Shown here: positions 44,440-48,376 of the stretch, piece by piece | Layout of the letters: each line of letters opens with the position of its first letter | Position numbering within the stretch: the stretch's first letter is position 1 | Assembly: GCF_009827575.1 (NCBI RefSeq) | Contig: NZ_WTYR01000001.1 | Span: 2,205,001 to 2,269,000 of the forward strand | DNA from: Alteriqipengyuania halimionae | GTDB lineage: Bacteria > Pseudomonadota > Alphaproteobacteria > Sphingomonadales > Sphingomonadaceae | Direction: 5' to 3' | DNA: 64,000 nucleotides | The notes under the pieces: generated by a model | Databases searched by the model: none | The model's input: the letters and a program-made list of their open reading frames with translations, nothing else | Told to the model about the DNA's origin: nothing | Position numbers and translations under genes: made by a program

Positions 44440-46122
44440 ATGATTCCAACCGAACCGCCTGCCACCGAATCGACCGCCAAAGGATCGCACGCCACCGCCG
44501 TGATCAATCGGCGAACGCTGCTCAAATCAGGGGTGCTGGCAACCGCCCTGGCTGGATCGCCGGTGCTAGCTCAGTCCGGCGAACGCGGATTCACCCACGG
44601 AGTTGCCAGCGGCGAGCCCGGGGCCGATCGCGTGCTGTTGTGGACTCGTTTCGTTGCCGACTCGCCCGCCAAGCTCACTTACGAGTTGAGCGACACGGCC
44701 GACTTTGCGCGCATCGTTACCGGGGGCGAGGCTTCGGCTACCCCGGATCGCGACTGGTGCTGCAAGGCCAAGGTCAACGGGCTCGAACCGGATAGCTGGT
44801 ACTATTATCGCTTCGTATCACCCGATGGGTCGATCTCTCCGGTGGGCCGAACCCGCACACTACCGCTCGGCCCGACCGAGCGGTGGCGGATGGCGGTGTT
44901 CTCCTGCTCCAATATCGGCTTCGGGTGGTTCAACGCCTACGCCCATGCCGCCGCCGAAGACGCGTTCGACATGATCGTGCACACGGGCGATTATTTCTAT
45001 GAATACGGCCGCGGGACCTATCCCTCGGTCGAACAGGCGCTGGCCGATCGCAGGCTCGATCCAACGAACGAGATCGTTACGCTGGCCGATTACCGCGCGC
45101 GGCACGGACTCTATCGCCGCGATCCGGATCTGCGTCGCCTGACCCAGCTCTACCCGATGATCGCGGTGATCGACGACCACGAGAGCGCGAACGACTCCTG
45201 GCGCGGCGGGGCCGAGAACCACCAGCCCGAGACGGAAGGCGACTGGAGCGTGCGCAAGCGCGCCGCCATGCGCGCCTATCGCGAATGGATGCCAGTCGAC
45301 GACGAGGTCGATTATGCGCGCTACGATATCGGCGACCTGGCTACGCTGTTCCGGCTCGAAACCCGGCTGACCGGGCGCGATGAGCAGTTCTCGATCGGCA
45401 AGGTGATTTCGGGGAAGACCTCGCCCGACGAGATGATGGCCGCGCTTTCCCGCTTCCATGATGGCGAGTATCTCGACCCGTCGCGCAACATGATGGGCGA
45501 AGCGCAAAGCGCTTGGTTGAGCGAGGGACTCGGGCAATCGAAGCGTGACGGCACAACATGGCAGGTGCTCGTCCAGCAAGTGCTGACGGGCTCGGTTTCG
45601 ACACCCACCGGATTGGCCGATTCGCTCGGCGACGATGTGCCCGACTATGTCCGCCAACGTGTCCGTGCCGGAGCGCTGGCCGCAAAGGCTGGCCTCCCGC
45701 TTAACATGGACGCATGGGACGGTTATCCCGCCGCCCGCGCGCGCCTGTTCGAAAGCGCGCTTGCCGCCGATGCCGATCTCATCGTTCTCGCCGGCGACAC
45801 CCACAATGCCTGGGCCTTCGACCTCGATCACGATGGTGACCGCGTCGGCGTGGAGTTCGGCGGGCAATCGGTGACATCGCCGGGGTTCGAAAGCTATCTG
45901 CCGCAGATCCCGGCAGACCGCCTCGCCAGCGCCCTGGTGGAGGCCAATCCGCAACTGCGCTGGGCCCAAAGCTCGCGCCGCGGCTACATGGCAGTCGAGC
46001 TGACACCGACGCGTGCGACCAGCGAATATCGCTTCCTGTCGGGCATCCGTTCGCGATCCACGGCCCTGGCCGCCACCCATCGCGAAAGCGTGCGCAACGG
46101 CGAGAGAACACTCGAAACTTGA
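44440..46122 (+). CDS. phoD: PhoD-like alkaline phosphatase/phosphodiesterase
   Basis: 560 aa. A twin-arginine-like signal, NRRTLLKSGVLATALAGS, suggests Tat export. Residues about 45-140 form the PhoD N-terminal fibronectin-like domain (FTHGVASGEPGADRVLLWTR); metal ligands follow in VFSCSNIGFGWFNAY, VHTGDYFYEYGRGTYP, VIDDHESANDSWRGGAENH and VLAGDTHNAW. It hydrolyses phosphomono- or diesters outside the cytoplasm. ATG 44440 has GGAG six bases upstream; ATG 44428 is an alternative. No pho box was identified by eye. Confidence 0.92.
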   Translation: MIPTEPPATESTAKGSHATAVINRRTLLKSGVLATALAGSPVLAQSGERGFTHGVASGEPGADRVLLWTRFVADSPAKLTYELSDTADFARIVTGGEASATPDRDWCCKAKVNGLEPDSWYYYRFVSPDGSISPVGRTRTLPLGPTERWRMAVFSCSNIGFGWFNAYAHAAAEDAFDMIVHTGDYFYEYGRGTYPSVEQALADRRLDPTNEIVTLADYRARHGLYRRDPDLRRLTQLYPMIAVIDDHESANDSWRGGAENHQPETEGDWSVRKRAAMRAYREWMPVDDEVDYARYDIGDLATLFRLETRLTGRDEQFSIGKVISGKTSPDEMMAALSRFHDGEYLDPSRNMMGEAQSAWLSEGLGQSKRDGTTWQVLVQQVLTGSVSTPTGLADSLGDDVPDYVRQRVRAGALAAKAGLPLNMDAWDGYPAARARLFESALAADADLIVLAGDTHNAWAFDLDHDGDRVGVEFGGQSVTSPGFESYLPQIPADRLASALVEANPQLRWAQSSRRGYMAVELTPTRATSEYRFLSGIRSRSTALAATHRESVRNGERTLET

Positions 46123-46147
46123 TCGGGCCGCGCCGCCGGACTATCTT
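46119..46147 (+). promoter_or_regulatory. Promoter of the thrS leader
   Basis: TTGATC (46119-46124), a spacer of exactly 17 bases, and TATCTT (46142-46147) match a housekeeping promoter. Transcription should start about seven bases downstream, at or next to the A of the leader ATG (46154). The leader message would therefore be leaderless. Confidence 0.6.
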
Positions 46148-46153
46148 GTCCGC

Positions 46154-46222
46154 ATGGCCAAACGTGTGACCACCACGACGACTACCACCCCGGCGCTCCG
46201 GGGGCGGTCGGTCGCGCGCTAG
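46154..46222 (+). CDS. Threonine leader peptide for thrS
   Basis: 22 codons: MAKRV, then seven consecutive Thr codons (ACC, ACC, ACG, ACG, ACT, ACC, ACC), then PALRGRSVAR and TAG. Such a run is the hallmark of a ribosome-mediated attenuation leader: when charged tRNA-Thr is scarce the ribosome stalls on the Thr codons and changes the folding of the RNA behind it. It lies 124 bases before the threonyl-tRNA synthetase start. No ribosome site precedes it, consistent with the promoter that puts +1 at the ATG. Confidence 0.8.
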   Translation: MAKRVTTTTTTTPALRGRSVAR

Positions 46223-46298
46223 TCGCACCGCCGCCACCCGGTTTCGGGTGGTGCGGCGTCCTCCCGAAATCGCAGAGCTTTCAACGTCGCGCTTTTTT
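46202..46298 (+). promoter_or_regulatory. Attenuator-like alternative hairpins before thrS
   Basis: A strong hairpin has a core of seven pairs, CCACCCG (46234-46240) with CGGGTGG (46245-46251), extended outward to 46226-46258 with a bulge and wobble. Competing pairings are GGCGGT (46203-46208) with ACCGCC (46227-46232), and the Thr-codon ACCACC (46170-46175) with GGTGGT (46247-46252). A T6 run is at 46293-46298, but it is about 35 bases beyond the hairpin, so classical intrinsic termination is not proven; control of initiation is possible. Confidence 0.55.
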
Positions 46299-46345
46299 CG
46301 CGTGCGCGCCTGTGCAATGGCGCGCGCAACAACTGGACGAGACCG

Positions 46346-48376
46346 ATGACCGAACTGCTCAAGATCAGCCTGCCCGATGGTTCCGTGCGCGAGATGGAGG
46401 AAGGCTCCACCCCGGCAGACGTCGCCGCCGCGATCGGGCCCGGCCTGGCCAAGGCCGCCATCGCCGCCCGCGTCGATGGAGAATTGCGCGACATCAACCG
46501 CCCGTTCGAAGGCGATGCCGAGCTCGCGCTGGTCACGTCGCGCGACGAGGAAGACGCGCTCGAACTCGCGCGCCACGACTACGCCCACGTTCTGGCCGAA
46601 GCGGTGCAGGCACTTTGGCCCGGCACGCAAATTACCTTCGGCCCGGCGACGGACGACGGTTTCTATTACGACGTCAAGGCACCCGAAAGCCGCGATCCGT
46701 TCAGCATGGACGATCTCCCCGCGATCGAGGAAAAGATGCGCGAGATCATCAAGGCTGACAAGCCGCTGCGCCGCGAAGTGTGGTCGCGCCAGCAGCTGAT
46801 CGAGAAGTGGGAAACCGAGGGCGAGACCTTCAAGGCCGAATGGGCCAAGGAACTGCCCGAGAACGAAGAGCTGACGGTCTACTGGTCGGGCGAAGACTGG
46901 CTCGACATGTGCCGCGGCCCGCACCTGCCCAGCACGGGCAAGCTCGATCCGCAGGCGTTTAAGCTGATGCGCGTTGCCGGGGCCTATTGGCGAGGCGACC
47001 AAAACAACGCGCAGCTCACGCGCATCTACGGCACAGGCTGGCTCAACAAGAAGCAGCTCAACGCGCATCTCCACCGGCTCGAGGAAGCCGCCAAGCGCGA
47101 CCACCGCAAGCTGGGCCGCGAGATGGACCTGTTCCACCTGCAGGAAGAAGCACATGGCAGCGTCTTCTGGCACCCCAAGGGCTATCGCATCTGGCGCGAG
47201 CTCGAGGCCTATATGCGCCGCAAGATGGACGGTGCCGGCTATCGCGAGATCAAGACCCCGCAATTGATGGATGTGCGCCAGTGGGAGCAGTCCGGCCACT
47301 GGGGCAAATATGCCGAGAACATGTTCGCGGTGCCCGATATCGTGCCCGAGATCGAAGGCCTTGGAGACGACAACGACGGCAAGGGGGCCGCGCCCGAGGT
47401 CGCCGCCGATGCCGACTGGATGGCGATCAAGCCGATGAATTGCCCGGCGCATGTGCTCGTGTTCAAGCAGGGTATCACCTCCTATCGCGACCTGCCGATC
47501 CGCTTGGGCGAGATGGGCTGCTGCCATCGCAACGAGCCGCATGGCGCGCTCCACGGACTGATGCGCGTGCGCCAGTTCACCCAGGACGATGCGCATATCT
47601 TCTGCACCGAAGCGCAGGTCGTCGAAGAGGTTCGCGCGTTCTGCGAACTGGCCGACAGCGTCTACAAGGACTTCGGTTTCGAGTACGACGTCAAGCTCGC
47701 CCTGCGTCCTGAAAAGCGGTTCGGCTCGGATGAAATGTGGGACAAGGCCGAGCAGGAAATGCGCGACGCGGTCGAAGAAGCGGGCATGGCCAATGACGAG
47801 TATGGCTGGGAGGAACTCCCCGGCGAAGGTGCGTTCTATGCGCCCAAGCTCGAATGGCACCTGACCGACGCGATCGGGCGGACCTGGCAGGTCGGCACGA
47901 TCCAAGGCGACCGCGTGCTGCCGGAACGGCTCGATGCGACCTATGTCGGCGAGGATGGCGAGCGTCATCGCCCGGTCATGCTGCACCGCGCGATCTTCGG
48001 ATCGTACGAGCGCTTCATCGGCATCCTGATCGAGCATTTCGCTGGTCGACTACCCGTCTGGCTTGCACCGGTGCAGGCGGTGGTCGCGACGATCGTTTCG
48101 GATGCGGACGACTATGCCAAGGAAGCGGTTGCGAAACTGGAAGCAGCGGGGATCCGCGTCGAGAGCGACCTGCGCAACGAGAAGATCAACTACAAGGTGC
48201 GCGAACACTCGCTCGCCAAGGTTCCGCACCTGCTGGTAGTCGGCAAGCGCGAGGCCGAGGAAGGCACGGTCGCCGTCCGCACACTGGGCGAAAAGGAGCA
48301 ACGCGTGATGAGCCTGGACGAGGCCATTGCGATGCTGAAAGACGCTGCCACCCCACCCGATCTGAAGCAGGGCTGA
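46346..48376 (+). CDS. thrS: Threonyl-tRNA synthetase
   Basis: 676 aa class II synthetase. N-terminal TGS domain (about residues 1-62), editing domain with HxxxH-type motif in [11 protein letters not shown], catalytic core with zinc ligands Cys in KPMNCPAH and His residues later, [15 protein letters not shown] (motif 2 region), and anticodon-binding domain (from about 575, [12 protein letters not shown]). An acidic insertion of about 25 residues ([14 protein letters not shown] region) precedes KPMNC. GGACGAG lies upstream of the ATG. Expression is probably tuned by the threonine leader. Confidence 0.97.

Follow-up and report, generated by a model that had tools for sequence, protein, structure and literature searches.

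How the gene for threonyl-tRNA synthetase (thrS) is controlled in Alteriqipengyuania halimionae, and where the message of the threonine-rich leader in front of it begins, are the questions raised by this locus. We analysed a 64,000-nucleotide stretch (the window) of the 2.81-Mb genome; its ThrS has its nearest relatives in Qipengyuania and Parerythrobacter by ThrS comparison. An initial annotation had proposed that the leader open reading frame (ORF), thrL, lies on a leaderless transcript. We conclude that thrS is very probably governed by a ribosome-mediated transcription attenuator with a leaderless leader ORF. The features on which this reading draws are as follows.

46119–46124, + strand: −35 element TTGATC, overlapping the phoD stop codon; a TTG or xTGA element stands there in 75/79 distinct leaders.
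46142–46147, + strand: −10 element TATCTT after a 17-base spacer; TA at −14 to −11 of an in-frame start in 79/79.
46154, + strand: predicted transcription start at the A of the leader ATG, uncertain by 1–2 bases, judged by the pyrimidine at −1 and the −10 element lying 12 bases upstream.
46154–46222, + strand: leader ORF thrL, MAKRVTTTTTTTPALRGRSVAR-stop, from the window sequence and the leaders of relatives.
46169–46189, + strand: seven consecutive Thr codons, the control codons, in the window sequence.
46200–46211, + strand: segment A (GGGGGCGGTCGG), encoding part of Arg-Gly-Arg and pairing with B, from own-versus-swapped pairing, masked folding and codon use.
46228–46239, + strand: segment B (CCGCCGCCACCC), pairing with A or C, from own-versus-swapped pairing and masked folding.
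46240–46251, + strand: segment C (GGTTTCGGGTGG), pairing with B or D, from pair changes, own-versus-swapped pairing and masked folding.
46253–46259, + strand: segment E, 5′ arm of the terminator hairpin, from own-versus-swapped pairing and masked folding.
46260–46271, + strand: segment D (CCTCCCGAAATC), pairing with C (antiterminator) and otherwise in the terminator loop, from pair changes, own-versus-swapped pairing and masked folding.
46284–46290, + strand: segment F, 3′ arm of the terminator hairpin, from own-versus-swapped pairing and masked folding.
46293–46298, + strand: U-tract TTTTTT, predicted end of a released RNA of ~145 nt; present in the window, weak in 43/45 aligned leaders.
46304–46325, + strand: hairpin GCGCGCC-TGTGCAAT-GGCGCGC between attenuator and thrS, with weak pairing support (G:H, z = −2.5).
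46346–48376, + strand: thrS, threonyl-tRNA synthetase, the controlled gene (Pfam TGS, tRNA_SAD, tRNA-synt_2b and HGTP_anticodon).

For comparison, we assembled thrS loci from named genomes (80) and from the same GTDB family (110), giving, with the window, 191 upstream regions, 183 of them distinct. The family loci comprised 30 supplied loci and 80 others, mostly the closest, with a few rows skipped, among 195 GTDB genomes with a thrS match. Under a looser duplicate filter, 86 of 186 upstream regions held an ORF with a Thr cluster and a start codon. On visual inspection, five of these did not look like leaders and were set aside (L061, L102, L154, L111 and L148); the last two may be degenerate leaders. 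Removing two duplicates reduced the remaining 81 to 79 distinct leaders, 68 of them at <80% identity, so that a Thr-rich leader precedes thrS in 79 of the 183 distinct regions. The median leader carries 7 Thr (81 leaders). ACT accounts for 121/555 Thr codons in the leaders (n = 79), compared with 83/1875 in phoD plus thrS and thrS genes. The alignment used for the helices (A1) contains 45 of the 81 leaders: eight odd or truncated leaders and one without the anchor motif were excluded, the remaining 72 were thinned to 55 by identity, and 45 of these were taken.

With duplicates credited, the leader occurs in 22/80 named loci and 63/110 family loci. In an 80-row tree of ThrS, the Erythrobacteraceae part is filled with leader-bearing loci, including one clade with 15/15 rows to which the window belongs; 17/18 rows of the larger starred set carry it, and elsewhere the distribution is patchy, with 7 changes. 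The leaderless thrS attenuator probably extends to close relatives of the source sphingomonad. An RNA model built from the 45 leaders gave a single match in its own genome, at thrS, and matched 3 of the 289 genomes scanned for the class, each a member of the same family, under stricter filters that may miss weak matches. No Rfam family, the Thr leader of enterobacteria (RF00506) included, matched the leader at its gathering score, and across 46060–46400 no related match appeared at E values up to 5. An ORF search with a crude test revealed no convincing leader upstream of the trpE-, leuA- and ilvB-like loci of the same genome. In one metagenome-assembled relative (L011), the promoter and leader are kept, most of the switch (segments B–F) is lost, and ~119 bases separate the leader start from thrS.

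The segments downstream of the Thr codons can form four helices, A:B, B:C, C:D and E:F. We compared the pairing of each arm with its own partner to that with another species' partner; kinship of the sequences can inflate these scores, and the controls were built from the same sequences. The z values were −8.0 for C:D, −6.0 for E:F, −5.2 for A:B and −3.4 for B:C, compared with +2.1, +1.1 and +0.3 for three control helices that form no part of the proposal. C:D is paired in 90.3% of alignment cells, with both-side changes in 5/9 pairs and 21 double-change cells (6.3 in shuffles). B:C is paired in 94.3%, with both-side changes in 1/7 pairs, which on that measure is not above shuffles. An alternative helix, F:G, was rejected (z = −0.6), and CCTCC, considered as a separate conserved element, was explained by inspection as the extended partner of C.

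Folding with ribosome-covered bases masked predicts that ribosome position switches mutually exclusive helices, A:B with C:D when stalled on Thr and B:C with E:F at the stop codon. For the window with a stalled ribosome, the expected numbers of pairs were 12.0 (A:B), 0 (B:C), 5.0 (C:D) and 2.4 (E:F), and C:D reached 6.9 before F had been made; with the ribosome at the stop, B:C reached 6.7, C:D 0 and E:F 6.9. The means over the 45 leaders were 8.8 (A:B), 1.0 (B:C) and 6.1 (C:D) when stalled before F, and 6.6 (B:C), 0.2 (C:D) and 6.4 (E:F) at the stop. The last Thr codon plus ~11 masked bases reaches 46198, two bases short of A. In the stalled state at full-length equilibrium, C:D prevailed over E:F in just 16/45 leaders, so order of synthesis must matter, with C:D forming before F is made. 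We abandoned a reading in which extended B:C acts as the single antiterminator against E:F: competition with E:F is better supported for C:D, and B:C and E:F form side by side in the masked folds. Default read-through in the absence of translation was likewise unsupported: the unmasked fold has C:D above E:F in only 8/45 leaders.

From the computed promoter geometry, leader, helix conservation and masking switch, we infer the actual 5′ end, the response to starvation and the termination step. RNA polymerase would start at, or 1–2 bases from, the A of the ATG at 46154, and a ribosome would load directly on the AUG at the 5′ end of the RNA. Under a shortage of charged tRNA-Thr, it would stall on the Thr codons (46169–46189) with its front edge short of A; A:B could then pair, leaving C free for D, which would prevent E:F and allow thrS to be transcribed. 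With ample Thr-tRNA, the ribosome would reach the stop codon at 46220 and hide A, so that B:C pairs and D stays unpaired. E:F would then form ahead of the U-tract and transcription would end, releasing an RNA of ~145 nt.

In the window, E:F is likely to be a transcription terminator. A generic terminator scan found nothing at the attenuator; its loop limit of 8 is too short for the E:F hairpin. After E:F, the longest T-run is six in the window and 2 or 3 in 43 of the 45 aligned leaders, and a canonical predicted terminator with a U-tract is present in only the window and one relative (L177). In relatives lacking the U-tract, termination may require Rho or be weak. The weak U-tracts lend some weight to an alternative to intrinsic termination, with the hairpins controlling thrS translation or working through Rho, as does the conserved motif T[GC]TGCCA, which 54/79 leader loci carry around −39 of thrS (1.0 in shuffles). 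Against it, E:F is conserved by pairing and is followed in the window by six U, and we rejected pairing with the thrS Shine-Dalgarno (SD) region, for which neither the C-T-T segment nor the downstream arms gave a signal (z = +2.1, +0.5 and −0.2). We regard this alternative as unlikely. The T[GC]TGCCA motif falls within a possible hairpin loop, is present in 7/89 loci without a leader, and has the variant TGTGCAA (46311–46318) in the window. Sphingomonads without a leader carry TTGCCTA ~66 bases before thrS in 14/89 loci (0.5 in shuffles; for example, L026, L031, L033, L034 and L050), perhaps as a replacement thrS promoter.

The attenuator reading next raises the question of the 5′ end. The initial annotation had placed TTGATC, a 17-base spacer and TATCTT ahead of the ATG at 46154, and all of these coordinates were confirmed in the window sequence, with the first T of TATCTT 12 bases before the A of the ATG. 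It had also noted the absence of a ribosome site before the leader, which holds: the strongest SD match in the 17 bases at −20 to −4 is 3 nt. A generic E. coli-type promoter scan of 45900–46400 at a limit of 9 matches found no promoter; by manual count, the TTGATC/TATCTT pair has 8/12 consensus bases, one below that limit. The pattern TTGA-N19-TAT-N9-ATG occurs three times in the 2.81-Mb genome, each time at the start of a good ORF, thrL among them, and the backwards-read control pattern has 0 matches; the leader promoter pattern is therefore beyond chance. The other two matches, at 1476182–1476219 on the minus strand (L199) and 1582985–1583022 on the plus strand (L200), precede ORFs of 189 residues (peptide-deformylase-like by eye) and 73 residues (membrane-like).

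Comparison among relatives supports the proposed leaderless transcript. In a strict count, made from the first in-frame ATG (GTG or TTG where ATG is absent), TA stands at −13 to −11 in 64/79 leaders (shuffles 9.3, maximum 18), and is joined by a −35-like element in 59/79 (shuffles 0.55, maximum 3). In a relaxed count, which admitted every in-frame start up to 14 codons from the Thr cluster and TA anywhere from −14 to −11, with shuffles given equal freedom, TA was found in 79/79 (shuffles 18.7, maximum 29), and TA with a −35-like element 16–17 bases upstream in 75/79 (shuffles 1.30, maximum 5). Among the 68 non-redundant leaders, the relaxed numbers were 68 and 64; with the five dropped regions all scored as misses, TA is still present in 79/84. 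The promoter pattern appeared 10 times in total at 106 other offsets tested, and thrS starts, taken without choice among starts, had TA in 6/81 and TA plus −35 in 0/81. Ten leaders require an in-frame start later than the first, which then stands at the right distance, and in several of these the −10 element overlaps the earlier ATG. Of the 76 leaders with an identified −35 element, 71 have a 17-base spacer and 5 a 16-base spacer.

The base at −1 is C or T in 70/79 leader starts, compared with 16/79 thrS starts, as expected if transcription begins at the start-codon A. No SD enrichment was found before the leaders (at least 4 nt in 10/79, shuffles 12.0); this absence alone is weak evidence, because thrS starts also show little SD excess (18/79, shuffles 15.7). 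The final base of the −10 element is T in just 9/79 leaders, in agreement with Novosphingobium aromaticivorans, in which >80% of sigma-70 promoters are reported to lack T at −7 (PMC8407463). Leaderless messages are ordinary in the class, with 119/2,675 transcription start–gene pairs in Zymomonas (PMC7566282) and 375 leaderless messages in Caulobacter (PMC4117421). The leader 5′ end is predicted from these sequence comparisons to be the A of the ATG, or 1–2 bases upstream.

A short but real 5′ UTR, or expression of thrS mainly by read-through from phoD, would instead make the leader ATG an internal start without an SD sequence. The gene upstream of the leader is phoD-like and on the same strand; its stop codon TGA (46120–46122) lies 31 bases before the leader, and the generic terminator scan found no terminator between the two, as such read-through would have it. 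The −10 T falls at −13 in 37 and at −14 in 6 of the 79 leaders, which fits a UTR of 1–2 nt. However, the promoter keeps its distance to the start in 79/79 leaders, whereas phoD lies upstream in only 9 and was not found in 13 of the 22 leader loci with long flanks; the promoter thus goes with the leader, not with phoD. SD matches no higher than shuffles also speak against an internal start. We consider this alternative quite improbable, and retain the leaderless attenuator.

The initial annotation had further drawn a parallel with the leaderless trp leader of Sinorhizobium meliloti. The parallel holds: the RNA rnTrpL begins with the trpL ATG (PMC7298713). Like the thrS leader, trpL is an alphaproteobacterial attenuator with RNA starting at the leader ATG; it differs in sensing Trp and controlling trpE(G), and in the trans functions demonstrated for its RNA and peptide (PMC7298713, PMC10117765), of which we saw no sign in the thrS leader. 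The suggestion that the released thr leader likewise regulates other messages in trans, as RNA or as peptide in the manner of rnTrpL/peTrpL, thus rests on analogy, and found no support here. In its favour, the thr leader shares the leaderless layout of rnTrpL (PMC7298713), and segment D (CCUCCCGAAA) would lie in a loop in the terminated fold; D, however, is conserved as the partner of C, and codon choice shows that the RNA, not the peptide, is constrained. A Gly at the Arg-Gly-Arg position, or that of a closely similar motif, occurs in 70/81 leaders and is encoded by GGG in 62/70; the first Arg is CGG in 50/50 and the last in 57/59. By contrast, phoD plus thrS and pooled thrS genes prefer GGC and CGC (GGG 437/3362 Gly and CGG 537/3533 Arg codons), so conservation of Arg-Gly-Arg follows RNA arm A. 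Apart from these and the Thr run, no residues are conserved, and Arg-Gly-Arg is written in codons needed by the cis helix; conservation of the peptide for itself was not found in the leaders, and the stretches conserved in the RNA form arms of cis helices. A trans role is accordingly highly improbable. Similarly improbable is that the terminated ~145-nt RNA is itself a regulator, its loop D (CCUCCCGAAA) exposing an anti-Shine-Dalgarno-like CCUCC that pairs with other messages at plentiful threonine, which, if true, would make segment D an antiterminator in cis and a seed in trans.

Several known systems resemble parts of the proposed attenuator. The his-type attenuators of proteobacteria consist of several alternating hairpins and a final terminator helix; the thrS leader has similar alternating helices and differs in that, under stalling, A is available for pairing (A:B with C:D). 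Leaderless poly-Cys short ORFs of mycobacteria reportedly act as attenuators, an account credited to Canestrari in 2020; they likewise pair a leaderless short ORF with a run of a single amino acid, and differ in phylum and amino acid. In Corynebacterium glutamicum, ilvBNC is described as having a three-hairpin attenuator with an anti-antiterminator, antiterminator and terminator chain (PMC11857589), which matches B:C, C:D and E:F; it differs in responding to branched-chain amino acids and in phylum.

The closest parallel by gene is thrL-thrS of Streptomyces lividans TK24, which is described as leaderless, with Thr codons, a hairpin and no clear U-rich terminator (PMC8079986). In both systems, a leaderless ORF containing Thr codons precedes thrS. 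The Streptomyces leader differs in belonging to Actinobacteria and in having 18 residues, among which Thr occurs twice and forms no long run; by eye, its sequence does not resemble that of the sphingomonad leader, and no A–F switch is described in the text consulted. It was the sole thrS leader found in the open-licence literature on thrS attenuation; an older subscription paper on leaders of alphaproteobacteria is possible, for example Vitreschak 2004. In the part consulted of a 2010 terminator survey, threonyl-tRNA synthetase is named only for E. coli autoregulation (PMC2965389). Leaderless amino-acid leaders were thus already known; a thrS attenuator is now predicted in sphingomonads.

The thrS leader calls for no new mechanism. 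It gives the Sphingomonadales a well-supported thrS attenuator that our scans did not find in Rfam, with a four-helix switch whose arms are testable in place of a simple two-hairpin picture. The 79 leaders make a comparative case for a leader ORF kept leaderless across the family, and such a family-wide leaderless leader is relevant to how the first ribosome is loaded on an attenuator.
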